From Desulfurellaceae bacterium (GTDB lineage Bacteria > Desulfobacterota > Binatia > Bin18): 60,793 bases of DNA. Position numbers and translations under genes: made by a program. The notes under the pieces are model-generated. The model worked only from the letters and a program-made list of their open reading frames with translations, was not told the DNA's origin and made no database searches. The stretch is taken from the NCBI GenBank assembly GCA_021296095.1, contig JAGWBB010000074.1, forward strand, positions 1-60,793, read 5' to 3'. Within the stretch, counting starts at the first letter, position 1; each line of letters opens with the position of its first letter. Shown piece after piece: positions 9,397-41,359 of the stretch.

Positions 9397-10023
9397 TCAC
9401 TGCTGACACGATGTCGCCTCAGCAAGGGCATCGTGGAATTTCGTAAAGCCGACCGAGCGGTTACGCGCCGGGTTGATATAGGCGGCAACGGCCCGCGCCG
9501 TTTCCACCTTGCGTAATCCTGTCTTGAAATACCCACGCTCTTTCAATATCCGCTCGAACGCCTCCCAGGTTCCTCCCTGGACTGAGTCGGGATTGCGATA
9601 CCGGCTTTGATTCGGAACAGTCGGCGATATTTTCGGATAGGCGTTGCGCACAGCCTCCCAGTCACCGAAATACCACGCCTCCAACTCCTCAACAGCAATC
9701 CGATTGACCAATTGCCAGGACCGGTCATCCACTCGCGACCTCGTGCGCAGATTTGCTCCTGATGCTGCGTCTTCCAGTTGTTGCTTAAGCCGCAGGCAGT
9801 CATCGTCATCGCGGTCTACGACCACAACGATGCGCCAATCAGCGGGCAGCCATCGCGCGTAGCCCCTCAAACGATTTTCTAATTTTCCTAGCAGGTCGCG
9901 CTTGCCCTGGAACGTATGGATCTCGAAACTACGGTCTACGGGTAAAATGCACGGTAAGAGTTCTCGCAGAAACGCTTCCATTGAGAGCTCTTCAACGAGT
10001 AGTTCCAAGTGTCTGACAATCAC
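9397..10023 (-). CDS. DUF4276 protein, Toprim-like, partner of an AAA ATPase
   Basis: 208 aa from GTG 10023; the GTG overlaps the stop of the upstream ATPase (GTGA, 10020-10023), so the two are translationally coupled. DUF4276 features are clear: LELLVEELSMEAFLREL, FQGKRDLLGKLENRLRGYA, an acidic strand end IVVVVDRDDDDC, AVEELEAWYFGDWEAV, and a C-terminal SVGFTKFHDAL. The acidic VVDRDDDD arrangement resembles the DxD element of Toprim nucleases. Pairing with an SMC/OLD-like ATPase recalls two-gene anti-phage systems such as PARIS, so a defence role is inferred by analogy. In-frame sequence upstream of the GTG runs through the ATPase gene and is not used. Confidence 0.82.
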   Translation of the reverse strand: MIVRHLELLVEELSMEAFLRELLPCILPVDRSFEIHTFQGKRDLLGKLENRLRGYARWLPADWRIVVVVDRDDDDCLRLKQQLEDAASGANLRTRSRVDDRSWQLVNRIAVEELEAWYFGDWEAVRNAYPKISPTVPNQSRYRNPDSVQGGTWEAFERILKERGYFKTGLRKVETARAVAAYINPARNRSVGFTKFHDALAEATSCQQ

Positions 10024-11272
10024 CGCTTGGGGCCCCGTGGAGGAGCGGTCGGTACGCCTTGATTGACCAGCGGATCGCCCACGCCGAAATATCCCTCCAT
10101 CCACAGGTTCCCCAGCAGACCGCCGTGCTCCAGGAAATTGCGCACCCTGGGGAGATCGGCCACGTGCTGGGACTGCGTATAACTCTGCTCGTCACGCCAC
10201 AGGACGCGCACCTCTTCGGACTGCAAGGCATTCAGGAAAAAGGGCGAATGGGTGGTCACGAGCAACTGCGTGCGCTCACTGGCCGCGCGGCATTCCTCGG
10301 CCAGTTCGGACAGCAACCGGGGGTGCAGGAAGTTCTCCGGTTCTTCGATACCTAATGAAGGGCGGCGGTTGGGGGTCGTACAGCAGCACAAGGTAGGCCA
10401 CCAGCATCTTCAGGGTGCCATCGGAGGCGAAACGGGCCAGCACCGGATGGCTGAACGGGGCGTCCTTGATCTGCAACAGCAAGCGACCGTCGGGCACTGT
10501 CTCGGCCAGCACCCTCTCAATACGCGGCACCCGGCGGCGCAGCACATTGAAGATGTCATCCAATCGTTCTGGATGCTGTTCGGCCAAGTATTGGATGACG
10601 TTGGCGAGATTGTCGCCCGTTTTGCTCAGCCGTTCTTGGGGTCCTGCCTCGGGCTGTCCGCGCGCGCTATCGGCTGACAGGTAGGACACGTGCCAGCCGG
10701 TGATAAAGTCGCGCAGCGCTGCCACGCGCGGGTGCTCGGCGAACTGCCCTGGCGCGTTGACTGCCAGCAGGTCGGGGGATTTGAGCGGAATATCCGTCCG
10801 CCGTTCTTGGCTGTTAGGTCGGTCTCCGCTGATGGCCTGACCCTGGCCCTGGCGATAGTCAAGGAAACGAAACGGTTGCCCATAACTCCCCCGCTTCCAG
10901 CGCAGCCACTCCTCCACGACCACCGGTGCGCGGTCACGTTCATCAACGACCAGATGAAACGACCAGATGATAGGTGACGAGCGGGTAGCCGGGCTCACGA
11001 TACTTGATCTCGATGGTCACCGGTCCCTCTGCACCGCGCGTCTTCAGTTCCCTGGCCCGCCCACGTTTATCCCAAGCCCGGCGCAGCCCCAGTTCAAAGC
11101 ACTCGGCGAGAAATGCGAACACGTCAAAGACCGTTGACTTGCCGCTCCCGCTGGGGCCGAGCAGCACGGTCAAGGGCGTCATTTTCTTAAATTCGGCTTC
11201 CCGCAGCGCCCGGAAATTCTGTACCTTCAGAGACTCAATGCGCGCCGGGGAATGTTGCCGGTTTCCGGACAT
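10020..11272 (-). pseudogene. AAA family (AAA_21, SMC/OLD-like) ATPase, frameshifted twice
   Basis: Three reading frames together give one ABC/SMC-like ATPase. The first piece (from ATG 11272) has the N-terminal [17 protein letters not shown] and Walker [10 protein letters not shown]. The middle piece (about 10360-10960) holds the helical insert. The last piece carries the signature/Walker B and switch, [21 protein letters not shown] and LLVTTHSPFFLNAL. The first break is an exact 13-bp tandem duplication at 10945-10970; removing one copy restores [11 protein letters not shown]. The second is a +1 shift near 10350-10362, where YDPQPPPF should join LGIEEPEN. It is coupled to the DUF4276 gene. 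Either the system is inactivated here or the breaks are sequence errors. Confidence 0.85.
10945..10970. repeat. 13-bp tandem duplication disrupting the ATPase gene
   Basis: AACGACCAGATGA occurs twice head to tail at 10945-10957 and 10958-10970. The 13-bp unit is not a multiple of three, so it shifts the frame of the ATPase; collapsing it to one copy gives continuous coding sequence. This looks like a slippage or short duplication event. Confidence 0.95.
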
Positions 11273-11306
11273 GGCAAAGCGCCGCTGAACCTATGCGTTT
11301 TCATCC

Positions 11307-11732
11307 TCATTCCTCATCGGGCACATCCCGCCCCAGCCAAGGCATCAGGCGTGAGCCGGAGGGCGCGGCCATTCTGGCCAGCCAGCCGGCCCGCCGGGTG
11401 AGTTTCTTTTGCGCCACGATGGTCTTGTCCATCAGCAGGGCTTGGAGCGCGTTCAGCCAGCACTCGTAGTAGGTCGGCCTCGCGTCAGACGGCTGGCGGT
11501 CGGCCTCGCCGATGGCGGCGATCAGCCGCTGCTGGAACTCCGCCCAGGCGAAGTGGCCCCGCTCACACAGAGCCACCGCCATGGCAAAGGCAATGCCTTC
11601 CCACGGGTCTTGGAAGAGCAGCTCTCCGCTCTGCCGGGGCAGGGCTGTCGGTCCGGCCATATCGGCCACCCGACGGTCGGCGGCGGGTGGCCGGGGATGT
11701 GTGTCACGTGGGGCCTCGGGCACACCGATCAT
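11307..11732 (-). CDS. Nitrile hydratase accessory (activator-like) protein
   Basis: 141 aa from ATG 11732, which overlaps the stop of the alpha-subunit gene (ATGA). The core matches the nitrile hydratase accessory/beta N-domain family: [45 protein letters not shown], then [16 protein letters not shown]. Such proteins deliver or help load cobalt into the alpha subunit; they are homologous to the N-terminal part of the beta subunit. The roughly 35-residue C-terminal tail ([21 protein letters not shown]) is unusual for the family. An alternative ATG at 11660 would remove a Pro-rich leader. No full beta subunit lies nearby. Confidence 0.78.
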
Positions 11733-12322
11733 GGCGGGTCGGGTGACCAGGGGGGCTCTTGGGTGCCGGCCGGACGTTGGGGGAGTACCAGATAGCGGGT
11801 CTGGGCAGTGCTGTTCCAGACCAGGATTTCGCGCTCTGGAGCGATCTCCAGACCAAACTCGCTCAGGACTTCGCGTGGCCGGCCACCAATCCGAGAACGG
11901 TAGGCCGAGCTTTTGTACCAGAACGGGGGCAGGCCCAGGACCGGCCACGGATAACACGAACACAAGGTGCACACGACCGCGTTGTGAACCCCAGGCGTGT
12001 TCTCGACCACCGTCAGCTCCTCGCCCTGCAAGCCCCCAAAGCCCAACTCGGCAATCGCCTCGGCGCCGTTCCGCAGCAGCCGCTCCTTGTAGGCCGGATC
12101 GACCCAGGCCCGGGCAACCACCTTGGCCCCGTTCAAGGGTCCGATGTCGTTTTCGTAGGTGTCCAGGACGGCGTCAAGATCGGCCGGCGTGACGAGCCCG
12201 TCCTCTTCCAGGACAGACTCCAGCGCTTTGGCCTGGACCTCACGCGCCTTGTTTTCCACCCGGCTGAGCCGGCGCTGGGTGTAGGCCGGTGTTGGACCGT
12301 GGTGATCGTGCTGATCGCTCAT
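11729..12322 (-). CDS. nthA: Nitrile hydratase alpha subunit, cobalt type
   Basis: 197 aa from ATG 12322 ([15 protein letters not shown]). The metal-binding claw is [17 protein letters not shown]; Thr between the first two Cys residues (C-T-L-C-S-C) is characteristic of the Co(III) enzymes, whereas iron enzymes have Ser. Other conserved parts are [42 protein letters not shown] and the catalytic-site Arg. It converts nitriles to amides, normally as an alpha-beta heterodimer. Here it is followed only by the accessory protein, so the beta subunit must be encoded elsewhere, be replaced by the accessory protein, or be missing. Confidence 0.88.
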
Positions 12323-12450
12323 GGGCGGCACGCTAGTCTGGAACAGACGGCGAGTCAAACAAACGGGCTTGGACCGTGTGTGGTGCCGATCATCTTGCGT
12401 TCCCCACCCGTCCCGCGATAGGTATAGGCTGACACGAGGAGGAGACTACT

Positions 12451-26245: not shown

Positions 26246-29200
26246 CTATCTCTCGGCCCAGCCCCCCAGGAGCATTCTGGCCTGCTGCAAATCCGCGGTG
26301 TCCAGCCCGGGGGCAAACCACCCGGACACCTCCGCGAGCAGCTGCCGTGCCTCAGCCGTTTTGTTCTGGGTCTGCCACAGCCGGCCCAGGCTCATGGCCG
26401 CCCGTAGCTCCAAAGACTTGGCCCGCTGTCTCCGGGCCGTCTCGGTCGCCCGCTGAAAACACACCTCAGCGGCGGACGTCTGGCGAGGGGTGCCCGTGTG
26501 GTCTTCGCGCGCGAGCAGGCACTCGCCCCTGCGCCGGTGTAGCTCGGCCTCATAGAAGCGCTCCCCGTGCTCTTCGACGGCCTGCAAGGCTTGGTCGAGG
26601 CTGTGCAGGGCGGCGTCCACCCGGCCCGTTTTGTCCTGCACCTCGGCCACCAGAGACAGAAAATACGGACGCAGCAACTCTGAGCCGGTCGCCTGCCAGG
26701 CGGCCAGTCCGTCTTCCAGCTGCGCCAAGCCGTCACCGGCCGGCGTCTGCATTGCCGTAGCCCAGCCCTGCAGCATCCGACCCATCGCCAACCAGTGGGG
26801 AAAGCCGTGTTTCTGGGACATGGCCACTGCGGCCGCAGCCGTGGCGTGGCTGGCCGACAGGTCGCCCCGCATCTGGTGCAACATGGCCAGCCAATTGTGG
26901 GCTGCGGCGAGGCTGTGGGGGAGGCCGTGGGCGGCGTCCAGGGCTTGCTGGCACTGGCGCAGAGCCTGGTCGGGATAGCCGAGCGCCCACACAGTCAAGG
27001 CGTTGTAAAACAGACACACCACCTTGGGATCGGAACCGTAGCGAAAGGCCAGGCTACGGTGGGTATCGGGCTGGTAGAGGGCAATCGCGTGTTCGAGATG
27101 CTCGCGGGCCAGGCCGAACTCACCCAGCCAGAACAAGGTGTTGCCGCACGCCCGGTGGACTTCGATCAGCGAGGCCGGATCGGGCAGACTGGAGGTCATC
27201 GACAGCAGCTGTTCGCCGAGTTCCCGGGCGGTGTGGAGTTCGCCCCGCATCTCATGGACCATCCACAGCCCGCGCAGGGCGGAAAACGCGCGGGACGGCT
27301 GACCAACCTGGTGGCCCAGTTCTTGGGCCCGGACGTAGGTGTCTTTGACCTCCGGGTCGGCATAGCCCTTGGTGGCAATCAGGCCGGGTCCACGCGTGGT
27401 GTGGAAATCCAGCTCGTGTTCGGCTCGCTCGGCTCCCTCGGGCAGGGATTTGAGCAGGGCCAAGCCCTGGCCCAGGTGTTCGACCGCTTCGACATAGGCC
27501 GAGCGTTCAAACGCACGTTGACCGGCACGTTTCCAGTAGTCGAGCGCCGCTTGCTGCAGACCCGCCTGGGTATAGTGGTGGGCAATCAGCTCGGGCTGGG
27601 TTTCGGCCGTCTCAGGAAAACGTTTCTCCAGGACGCGGGCAATATGGGCGTGCAGTTCGAGGCGCTGGCTTTTGAGCAGGGACTGATAGGCCGCGTCCTG
27701 AATCAGGGCGTGTTTGAAGACCCAGCGGGGGTGCGACGGCTCTCCCCGGCGGGAGATGATCTCGGCGACCGCCAGTCGCTCCAGACCGTGCTGCAAGGAC
27801 TGGTCGTCGAGCGACCATACGGCCCGCATCACCTCGTGGGGAAAAGCACGGCCCAGGGCGGCACCGAGCTGGGCGACCTCTTTGGCCGGGCCGAGCTGGT
27901 CGAGGCGGGCCATCAGCAGGTCGTGCAGGGTGGCCGGAATGGCCAGGTCAGGCGTCTGAGACGCGGACAAAGAGGATGATTCGGCGTCCAGCACCATCGT
28001 GGTCAGTTCTTCAATGAACAGCGGAATGCCGTCGGTCTTATCCAGAATCTGTGCGACGAGGGCATGTGGCAGGCCCCGATCGCCGGCCAACTCGGCGATC
28101 AGCTGGGCCGCCTGTTGGCGTTCGAGACGGCCCAGGCTGAGCTGTTTCATGTGCGGGCGCATAGTCCAGGCCGGCGTAAAATCAGACCGAAAGGTCAGGA
28201 CGACCAGCAGACGGGCGCCGGCAACCCGGTCAATCAGGACTTGGAGCAGATCCAGGGTCGAAGGGTCGGCCCACTGGATATCTTCCCACACGACCAGCAG
28301 CGGGCCTCTAGCGGCCTGTTGCAGCAGTCCGGCGACAATGGCCTGCTGGGTGCGCTGCTTCTGGCGCTGGGGGCTTCCCTGCCAGGCCGTATAGCGCTCG
28401 TCCAGCGGGATAGACAGCAGGGCTGCCAGCAGCGGGACGACTTCCTGGCGGCCAAAGGGGTGATCGGCCAGCAGGGTTTCCAGCCGGAGGAGCCTGTCGG
28501 CAGGCCGTTCCTCCGGCCCGGTCTGGATCTGGCGCTGGAAATACTCGATCTGGGGGTAGAAGGCGCTGTGCTGGAAGTGGTCCGAACAGCGAAATTCGAG
28601 TTCGGTGCCGCCCTCGGTCGGGATGACGGGATTTCCCGATGCCGGGCTCTCCGCTCAGCAGCACAACCTGGCCGGAGGCGTTCCTGGCCTTACGCCAACT
28701 GTCGAGCAATGCCGCCAGGGTCTCCTGGCGGCCGACCATGGGCGACAGGCCGCGGCGGACCGCAGCCCGAAAGCGATCCCGCGCGCCGCTCTCACGCAGG
28801 ACTTGATACACCGCTATCGGCTTGGACAGGCCGCGCAGCGGACGCTCGCCGAGCGCCCGCCACTCACACAGCCCCTCAACCAGACGGGCCGTCGCCCCGC
28901 TGATGACGACCGTATCGGGACGGGCCAGATTTTGGGGGTCTCGCCCAGCGCCAGCCGCTCGTGTCGCCCGGCACCGCCCATTTCCCCGACCACCACCTGA
29001 CCGGTATGAATGCCGACCCGCACCCGCAACGGTCGGGCGGCCTGCCTGAGCAGGGGCGAATCCTGGACCGCCCCGACGATGCGCAGGCCGGCCCGCACGG
29101 CCTGGATCGCGTCGTCCTCATGAGCGACCGGATGACCGAAATAGACCAGCAGCCCATCGCCCAGGTATTGGGCGATATAGCCGGCAAAGCCGGCCACCAC

Positions 29201-30798: not shown

Positions 30799-31566
30799 AT
30801 GGCAGGATTACTGAGCGGAAAAGTCGCGCTGGTCACCGGCGGCAGCACCGGGATCGGCAGAGCCTCGGCACTGACCTTTGCCCGGGAAGGGGCGCAGGTC
30901 GTGGTCGCCGACGTGGTTGAAGACAAGGCCAAGGAGACGGTGCGACTCATCAAGGAAGCGGGCGGCGAGGCCCGCTGCATCAAAACCGACGTGACCCGGG
31001 CGGCCGAAGTCGAGGCCATGGTCCGCTTTACTCTCGACGCCTATGGCCGGCTCGACTGTGCCCATAATAATGCCGGCATTGAGGGGACGGTCAGCAATAC
31101 GGCCGAGTACGCCGAGGCGGACTGGGACCGCGTTATTGGGGTCAATCTGACCGGGGTGTGGTTGTGCATGAAGTATGAAATTCCGCCCATGCTCGAGCAG
31201 GGCGGCGGAGCCATCGTCAACACCGCCTCGGGAGCCGGCCTGATCGGCGCTCCGGGCATGCCGGCCTATGTGGCCAGCAAGCACGGCGTGGTCGGCCTGA
31301 GCAAAACCGCCGCCCTGGAATACGCCAAGGCCGGTATTCGGGTCAACGCCATGTGCCCGGGGGTCATCGAAACCCCCATGGTCGAGCGTCTGACGGGCGG
31401 TAATCCGGGCATGATGGAAGGCTTTGTCGCCATCCATCCGGTTGGCCGGGCCGGCCAGCCCCAGGAAATCGCCGAAGCCGTGGTGTGGCTGTGCTCGGAC
31501 GCGGCCTCGTTCGTCACCGGCCACGCCATGTCGGTCGAAATAGGGAGGAGGACATGCCAGGATTAG
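30799..31566 (+). CDS. SDR-family NAD(P)-dependent oxidoreductase, first of a tandem pair (altered C-terminus)
   Basis: 255 aa classical SDR: cofactor loop TGGSTGIGRA, NNAG, catalytic Ser in NTASGAGL and YVASK. Start ATG 30799 after AAGGAGGACCG. Compared with its neighbour the protein ends abnormally: SFVTGHAMSVE is followed by IGRRTCQD instead of the usual DGGLVVQ end. The DNA reads TCGGTCGA and then directly AATAGGGAGGAGG, as if about 20 nt containing the last codons and the stop had been removed, so the frame runs 13 bases into the next gene. Activity is probably unaffected. Likely substrate a hydroxyacyl or alcohol compound; undefined. Confidence 0.85.
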   Translation: MAGLLSGKVALVTGGSTGIGRASALTFAREGAQVVVADVVEDKAKETVRLIKEAGGEARCIKTDVTRAAEVEAMVRFTLDAYGRLDCAHNNAGIEGTVSNTAEYAEADWDRVIGVNLTGVWLCMKYEIPPMLEQGGGAIVNTASGAGLIGAPGMPAYVASKHGVVGLSKTAALEYAKAGIRVNAMCPGVIETPMVERLTGGNPGMMEGFVAIHPVGRAGQPQEIAEAVVWLCSDAASFVTGHAMSVEIGRRTCQD

Positions 31567-32319: not shown

Positions 32320-33109
32320 CTACTGACCGACCCAGAGCAGCGTCGCACAGCCCAGCGCCCAGCAGTAGTAGGCAAACGGCGACAGACTCCGAGCCTTGCG
32401 GAATGCTGGCGTAGCCGACCCCGGCCGCGACCAGGCTGCCGAGCGCGTACGAGGCCACATCAATCCCGCCGACCACGTCTTCCCAGTGCGACACGAGTTG
32501 CAGGCCAAAAGCGCCGCCAACGGCCGGGATGGACAGCAAAAATGAATAGCGGACCAGCAGCTCACGCTCCAAGCCGAGGAAGACCCCGGTCGCAATCGTG
32601 CTTCCTGATCGGGACAGACCCGGGATAAGCGCCAGCCCCTGGGCCAGTCCGATCAACACCGAGTCGCGCACGCGCATCTCGGCCAGGCTTCGACCCGACG
32701 GCCGTACCCTGTCGGTGGTAAACAACAAGCCGCCGGTGACCAGCAGGGCCAGCCCGGCGGCGTGCGGATCGCTGAACAGGGCCTCAAAGTGCTGACGAAA
32801 GCTGAGACCGATGAGCAGAGTCGGGACGGAGCCGGTTGCCAGCAGCCCCAGCAGACGCCGCGATCTTGCAGCCTGGGGATGGTGGGAGGACACGCACGAC
32901 ACAGCCAGGAGATACAGGTCGTGCCGAAAATAGACACACACCGCAGCCAGCGTACCCAGGTGGAGGGCCGCGTCGAGCAGCACGCCGGGTTGAGAGAAGC
33001 CGGGGATGCTGTGCTGGGCCACCACCAGATGGCCCGAGCTGCTGACCGGCAGGAACTCGGTCAAGCCTTGCAGCAGGCCGAGCAACACCACCGGCAGGCT
33101 GGACGGCAC
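32320..33109 (-). CDS. uppP: Undecaprenyl-diphosphatase UppP (BacA), frameshift near C-terminus
   Basis: Recycles the lipid carrier of cell-wall synthesis by removing a phosphate from undecaprenyl pyrophosphate. Start GTG 33109 after AGGGAGA. Family motifs are LLQGLTEFLPVSSSGHL (catalytic Glu) and ALIPGLSRSGSTIATG. The main frame is good to about 32395 (GVGYASI). The correct C-terminal helix then continues in another frame: FRKARSLSPFAYYCWALGCATLLWVGQ, stop 32320. Five to seven residues of the last loop are missing at the junction, consistent with a deletion of about 14-20 nt. Without the shift the frame reads on across the antisense of the SDR gene to 32021, which is not real coding sequence. 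Confidence 0.85.
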
Positions 33110-34337: not shown

Positions 34338-34484
34338 ATGTCCCTCCTGTCCAAAGGGAATCGTCATCTCCCCTGGATAGCTTTTGTCATCACAATTACC
34401 CTTTGCTCAATCTTCGCCAATGCGCTCCAACGTGCTAGGCTGGGCAGCTTAGCAGGCAGGACAGCAAACGCAAAGGAGACCGGT

Positions 34485-40588: not shown

Positions 40589-41359
40589 TCACGACACCAG
40601 ACAGGCTTGGAGCGGAACAATTGCCAGAGAGTCCGGACCCAGACTGTATCCGGAAATCCGATGCTGCAGTACCGGATAGGACGGTGTCTCGCCCGAACGG
40701 AGTTGCTCCGTTCTCTGGAGAACCTGGCGGACGTATTGCCGAGTCTCCACATAGGGCAGGTATTGACGCTCCTCCAGGATGGTCGGACCCATATTGTAGG
40801 CGGCTAAGGCGGCCGACCGATCAGCAAAACGGGTCAGCATGATTTTGAGATAGGACAGTCCACCGTAGACCAGGACCGGCAGGGAGTGCTCCGAGGGAGA
40901 CAGGCCGACTTCTTCGAGGGCGACCGGTCCGATTTGCAGAGGTCCGCGGCTACCCCGGCTACCCGGTTTCATCGGATCACGGGCGTCACTTTCCTGAATC
41001 AGCAGGGCAACGGCCAAGGTCTCGTCAAGTCCCAACTGACGGGCCAGACAGCGGGTATACTGCTCGAGGGTGAGTCTGCTGTATGACTGGGACTTGCTCT
41101 GTTGCTGAGGGGAATAGTCGGTGGCTGGCAACTGCGGAGTCGCCGCTATCCGTTTGATTTGGCTCGGCTCTCGACTCGGCTCTTGGCTCAACTCTTGGCT
41201 CAACTCTTGGCTCAACTCTTGGCCCGGTTCTTGCGCGGGTGTCAGCGCCGAACTCGTCGGCGGTCGCAGGACGAGGAACCCGACGCTCAGCAGGACGACA
41301 CCAAGGCAGGCATAATGCCACGCCGGATGGGTCAGCGAGGGAGACGGGGCAGCATTCAT
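40589..41359 (-). CDS. Membrane-anchored lytic transglycosylase
   Basis: 256 aa from ATG 41359 (MNAAPSPSLTH). AAGGAG lies 11 bases upstream of it, while a second ATG at 41368 is too close. One N-terminal transmembrane helix (YACLGVVLLSVGFLVLR), a linker of tandem ELSQ units, then an SLT domain: LGLDETLAVALLIQESDARD with the catalytic Glu, GSRGPLQIGPVALEEVG, SYLKIMLTRF and SAALAAYNMGPTILEERQYLPYVETRQYVRQVL. It cleaves peptidoglycan glycan strands. Divergent from putA. Confidence 0.82.
   Translation of the reverse strand: MNAAPSPSLTHPAWHYACLGVVLLSVGFLVLRPPTSSALTPAQEPGQELSQELSQELSQEPSREPSQIKRIAATPQLPATDYSPQQQSKSQSYSRLTLEQYTRCLARQLGLDETLAVALLIQESDARDPMKPGSRGSRGPLQIGPVALEEVGLSPSEHSLPVLVYGGLSYLKIMLTRFADRSAALAAYNMGPTILEERQYLPYVETRQYVRQVLQRTEQLRSGETPSYPVLQHRISGYSLGPDSLAIVPLQACLVS
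41181..41222. repeat. 12-bp tandem repeat coding the ELSQ linker
   Basis: The unit TCTTGGCTCAAC is repeated three times plus a partial fourth copy, coding repeated ELSQ on the minus strand. Degenerate versions continue on both sides as EPGQ, EPSR and EPSQ. Such in-frame repeats can vary in number and change linker length without breaking the gene. Confidence 0.9.

Follow-up and report, generated by a model that had tools for sequence, protein, structure and literature searches.

The window, by which we mean the whole stretch of 60,793 nucleotides that was analysed, contains an ATPase gene and a DUF4276 gene side by side on the minus strand. In the following, G000 denotes the window's own genome, G008 a congener (genus g1) and G011 a genome of genus g4. 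The locus consists of the following features:

10020-11272, minus strand: AAA/ABC-type ATPase gene of HEC-01A type, with two breaks in its frame
10943-11272, 10276-10998 and 10020-10391, minus strand: readable pieces of the ATPase, open reading frames in different frames
9397-10023, minus strand: DUF4276 gene for a predicted Toprim-fold nuclease, intact, GTG start
10945-10970, no strand: exact 13-nt tandem duplication, frameshifting (Tandem Repeats Finder and a script)
10350-10358 (about 10354), minus strand: frameshift by one extra base directly ahead of the Walker B codons (seen against G006 and G011)
10395-10410 (about 10400), minus strand: in-frame 3-nt insertion in the ATPase (ortholog alignment)
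11270-11294, no strand: junction of a rearrangement, with the ATPase gene start on one side and a broken nitrile hydratase gene ending on the other (G008 homology breakpoints)

The GTGA overlap between the two genes in the original prediction was borne out by the sequence coordinates, the ATPase stop TGA occupying 10022-10020 and the GTG that starts DUF4276 occupying 10023-10021. The DUF4276 gene is open over 208 codons from this GTG and retains every residue that is invariant in the family alignment. The intact G006 ortholog of the ATPase has 412 amino acids, and the window pieces are 85-90% identical to it. At the junction upstream of the ATPase, the window is homologous to contig C696 of G008 from 11294 upward and to contig C265 of G008 up to 11269; to the right, the G008 copy has a flank different from that of the window.

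The ATPase had been described as split by an exact 13-bp tandem duplication and by a separate +1 shift near 10355, and both lesions were recovered. The duplication at 10945-10970 was found in two repeat searches and by comparison with orthologs, the 13-nt insertion being peculiar to the window copy when set against those of G006, G008 and G011. Exact tandem repeats with a period of 10-40 number three in the 60.8-kb window, this one included; by a rough estimate (length x 4^-10 x 4/3), fewer than 0.1 of them would be expected by chance. The second shift, seen as the frame change between the open reading frames 10276-10998 and 10020-10391, corresponded to the extra base at about 10354 in the ortholog alignment. 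The in-frame insertion at about 10400 was not part of the original description. Because the ATPase cannot be read whole from one frame, the window pair is predicted to be inactive. The aligned frame of the ATPase contains no in-frame stops, and dN/dS among G000, G006 and G008 is 0.14-0.19. From this low dN/dS it follows that the damage is either recent or not real, and the ATPase was probably under purifying selection until recently.

In Pfam, the DUF4276 gene matched PF14103 (E 6e-31) and the ATPase pieces matched AAA_21, AAA_15 and AAA_23. When compared with PADLOC models, residues 7-206 of the DUF4276 protein matched HEC-01B (PDLC04202, E 1e-85), and the three ATPase pieces matched HEC-01A (PDLC04182) with E 1.6e-36 (10943-11272), 1.6e-70 (10276-10998) and 8.1e-39 (10020-10391). 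HEC stands for 'Hma-embedded candidate' (PMC12988326), and one paper in the literature searched mentions HEC-01 in passing as a defence system. DUF4276 was not named in any paper found by our literature search. Both window proteins thus match the HEC-01 models, and their genes are adjacent and on one strand, as in relatives. The window copy differs in that its ATPase is broken and the pair lies outside any Hma or R-M operon. The window pair is a further member of the widespread HEC-01 candidate kind, disabled in the assembly. The earlier description of a related defence pair of the PARIS/OLD sort was therefore right about the pairing of an ATPase with a Toprim-like protein, but imprecise in its names, since the models that match are HEC-01A and HEC-01B.

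By both model and profile, the ATPase matches PtuA, OLD (6p74), AriA and Rad50/SMC proteins, with the PtuA ATPases of Septu and retron systems as the top fold matches of the model. The partner of those ATPases is the PtuB nuclease (HNH, according to the structure titles), whereas the partner here is DUF4276. The locus resembles PARIS in that separate ATPase and Toprim genes adjoin, with the Toprim effector encoded beside the ATPase, and in the weak AriA profile matches. The effector of PARIS is AriB, which is of DUF4435 type, whereas the effector here is DUF4276. Membership in PARIS was rejected: Pfam returned only DUF4276 at E up to 1, without an AriB/DUF4435 model, and the 13 families that PADLOC listed up to E 1 did not include AriB. 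Towards the OLD family (GajA, class 1 OLD) the likeness concerns both proteins, as the ATPase resembles 6p74 and DUF4276 resembles the Toprim domains 6nk8 and 6njw. In OLD classes 1-3, however, the ATPase and Toprim domains lie in one protein (PMC10568477). Two genes are found in the window and in 80/80 relatives (the best 80 of at least 541), and membership in classical OLD (classes 1-3) was rejected as well. We likened the locus to PARIS and OLD in its working and did not file it there, because the effector is DUF4276 and the domains lie in separate genes. The intact G006 ortholog also matches NCBIfam antiphage_MADS3 (E 2.6e-33), the model of MAD3, the ATPase of MADS. Its 115.8 bits compare with a MAD3 cut-off of 420 and no MADS operon was seen, so that membership in MADS was rejected.

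To judge the fold of the DUF4276 protein, we used an AlphaFold model (pLDDT 92.2) and a family alignment of 55 proteins, the window copy included. Strands and helices alternate in the model. The alignment has 14 invariant columns, among them E13, S16, D72, D74, E115, E117, W119 and D148; E13 is placed just past strand 1 and D72 ends strand 3. VIA-align ranked OLD Toprim domains 1 and 3-5 (6nk8 with Z 10.9, 6njw with Z 10.3), the hypothetical archaeal protein 2p62 second (Z 10.5) and the PARIS chain 8ux9_A sixth (Z 8.9), and unrelated rows reached Z 7.7 or less. By itself, Foldseek returned nothing from the PDB at E 0.001 or better, and a profile search of the PDB found no relative. The predicted structure thus places a conserved Glu and a DxD (E13, D72 and D74, 55/55) on a Rossmann-like core, as expected of a Toprim domain. 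The Toprim fold with its acidic cluster had been put forward as something a structure prediction should reveal, and the model with its OLD Toprim matches and invariant acidic residues agrees with it. DUF4276 is accordingly a predicted Toprim-fold nuclease, probably metal-dependent, that would cut DNA or RNA.

Relatives were collected by scanning the contigs of named genomes with the DUF4276 alignment, and the best 80 of at least 541 loci were retained. These 80 stem from Pseudomonadota, Latescibacterota, Acidobacteriota, Planctomycetota, Cyanobacteriota, Chloroflexota, Methanosarcina and others, and the nearest named relative among them is a Candidatus Binatia MAG (L050, taken to be G006). In 80/80 of these best relatives the ATPase lies directly upstream of DUF4276, on the same strand and in one frame, although this set, having been chosen by a good DUF4276 match, is biased towards intact systems; L055 and L095 are truncated at contig ends, and in L102, taken to be the G011:C626 record, about 27 residues are missing in frame. 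The distance from the ATPase end to the first aligned DUF4276 base ranges from -13 to +37 nt in the same 80. In a tree of 43 ATPases phyla were mixed, with 16 label changes against a minimum of 9 and a shuffled mean of 22.6; the tree is a quick one with many open forks. This mixing fits transfer, without being proof of it. No matching protein was found in the phage records searched, and nine plasmid records had a match, all below 60% identity.

Within 6 kb of the pair, homologs of hsdR were found in 20/80 loci, of hsdS in 16/80, of both in 14/80 and of either in 22/80, leaving 58 of these best 80 (of at least 541) with homologs of neither gene in the flanks. The order hsdS-ATPase-DUF4276-hsdR was confirmed with Pfam in L067, L069 and L088. 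A neighbour scan covered 147 genes (73 + 74) of 277 picked, namely the nearest one on either side of the pair. With Pfam, HSDR_N was found in 4/73 and 4/74 of these genes and Methylase_S in 5/73 and 3/74, and the mad5 model matched 5/73. Ribonucleotide reductase small chain matched 6/73 of the scanned genes (nearest neighbours in L050-L089). As a control we took the 40 other genes of the window, a weak one since they come from one genome only; none of these 40 matched an R-M model of PADLOC. One of them matched PADLOC PD-Lambda-2_B (E 5.9e-39). The window is not a defence island. The expected link to defence loci was thus seen in relatives, with type I R-M genes at 22/80 (best 80 of at least 541), but not beside the window copy. 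A missing acidic cluster together with a missing link to defence loci had been named beforehand as speaking against the defence reading; both were examined, neither was found, and the reading was not refuted.

We also compared the closest copies. The G006 pair is intact and lies at a different genomic place. The G008 ortholog adjoins the same ATP-grasp gene as the window copy and has lost 51 ATPase codons including Walker B as well as 143/209 DUF4276 codons. The G011 ATPase misses 27 codons in frame. None of the copies in G006, G008 and G011 shares a lesion with the window. At synonymous sites, G000 and G008 diverge by 0.18 in two flank genes and by the same 0.18 in the final quarter of the ATPase taken with what remains of DUF4276, but by 0.42-0.44 over the preceding three quarters of the ATPase (G008 = L045:8720-9800). 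The latter is more than twice the flank divergence, which points to exchange of part of the ATPase in G000 or in G008. G000 has two further pairs. The pair on contig C29 (L042:5741-7520) has open frames, and its DUF4276 lacks 48 codons (144 nt) in frame, DxD included. The pair on contig C22 is intact and forms a cassette of about 2 kb (L043:5050-7054) whose matching site in G008 is empty. Damage thus affects 3/4 copies in genus g1 (window, G000:C29 and G008:C265, with G000:C22 intact) compared with 0/6 in genus g2 (G001, G002, G003, G004, G006 and G007); this contrast is small and was seen after the fact, and G011, with its in-frame deletion, stands outside the count, as do the more distant ATPase matches.

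Damage was also found elsewhere in the window. Over the 40.7 kb that could be compared with G008, other genes carry further frameshifting length differences. Unshared differences comprise 19 nt at 11757, 23 at 28626, 19 at 28935, 17 at 31539 and 17 at 32399. The matches of many relatives end exactly at 31539, and at least that difference is therefore peculiar to this assembly. Further differences from G008 lie at 34387, 22420 and 23808; overall they measure 10-23 nt and are mostly not multiples of three. Several fall in unrelated genes, mostly without obvious direct repeats. A 24-nt minisatellite of about three copies (41159-41233) differs from G008 by one unit. The difference at 11757 is a 19-nt deletion that breaks the nitrile hydratase alpha-beta gene (11307-12340), a gene that most of the best relatives have as a single open frame of about 360-370 residues. 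Mismatches beside the deletion are biased to G (15/22 changes), suggesting that the sequence is poor there. On contig C22, of whose first 14 kb 4.9 kb could be compared with G008, length differences were confined to two short stretches. Either the genome is eroding or the assembly is faulty. Given the frameshifting deletions in unrelated window genes, general gene decay or faulty assembly accounts for the lesions just as well as a loss of the ATPase/DUF4276 system in particular.

The frameshifts could be faults of assembly or sequencing, with the ATPase intact in the real organism, and we consider this a serious possibility, if somewhat short of an even chance. The unshared frameshifting length differences from G008 in unrelated genes favour it, as do the G-biased mismatches beside 11757 and the ATPase's stop-free aligned frame with low dN/dS; an exact 13-nt copy would also be expected if contig ends had been joined with their overlap unmerged. 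However, no G bias was found at 10947, the G008 ortholog is broken too, by other lesions, and the second G000 pair is without its Toprim DxD segment, which together make decay plausible in the genus. The low dN/dS and the aligned frame without stops would suit programmed frameshifting that restores the whole ATPase as well, but this would require two sites of different kinds, neither of them common to orthologs, and is extremely improbable. The original prediction had called the pair inactivated or phase-variable. The frame is indeed broken in the assembly, but phase variation did not hold up. An exact two-copy coding repeat can in principle expand and contract, and as a switch it would turn the system on and off; against this, the independent second frameshift would keep the gene off whatever the repeat length, the orthologs in G006, G008 and G011 lack the repeat, and the ATPase is in one frame in 80/80 relatives (best 80 of at least 541). 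We rejected such a switch on account of the second frameshift and the three orthologs, and hold it to be very improbable.

A different alternative concerns the effector. DUF4276 may have the Toprim fold without being a nuclease effector, and may instead regulate or bind nucleic acid. The G000:C29 pair, with both frames open despite the in-frame loss of DxD, agrees with this, but the catalytic-type acidic residues are invariant in 55/55 proteins, and we judge this alternative improbable. With a probability of about 0.72, we interpret the locus as a two-gene anti-phage candidate of HEC-01 type in which a sensor ATPase gates a Toprim-fold DUF4276 nuclease, the ATPase frame being interrupted in the assembly. 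In intact relatives, the OLD/PtuA/Rad50-like ATPase would most likely be the sensor, complexed with the DUF4276 protein. It would gate DUF4276, the Toprim-fold metal-dependent nuclease encoded directly behind it, and sensing of infection (perhaps of blocked restriction or foreign DNA) would release or activate this nuclease. PARIS and OLD (reviewed in PMC10568477) served as the model: infection is sensed by the ATPase, which in turn controls a Toprim nuclease. It is from this analogy that we infer complex formation, the trigger, the nuclease substrate and the anti-phage effect.

With this analysis, DUF4276 gains a fold and a probable active site, and the HEC-01 candidate is linked to the OLD/PARIS way of working. 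Since type I restriction genes lie near about a quarter of the relatives (best 80 of at least 541), a guard or back-up role can be tested directly on intact pairs. The copy in the window is of minor importance, except as an illustration of the way in which such a pair may be lost. One could go further and imagine, as an unlikely extension, that HEC-01-type pairs guard restriction as mobile two-gene cassettes, often between hsdS and hsdR, and that, being able to harm the host, they were repeatedly disarmed in one genus by independent lesions of the ATPase or of the catalytic Toprim segment. The G001 pair (L047:336-10813) is flanked by a DUF1156 gene on one side and a Swt1-HEPN/DUF499 gene on the other.
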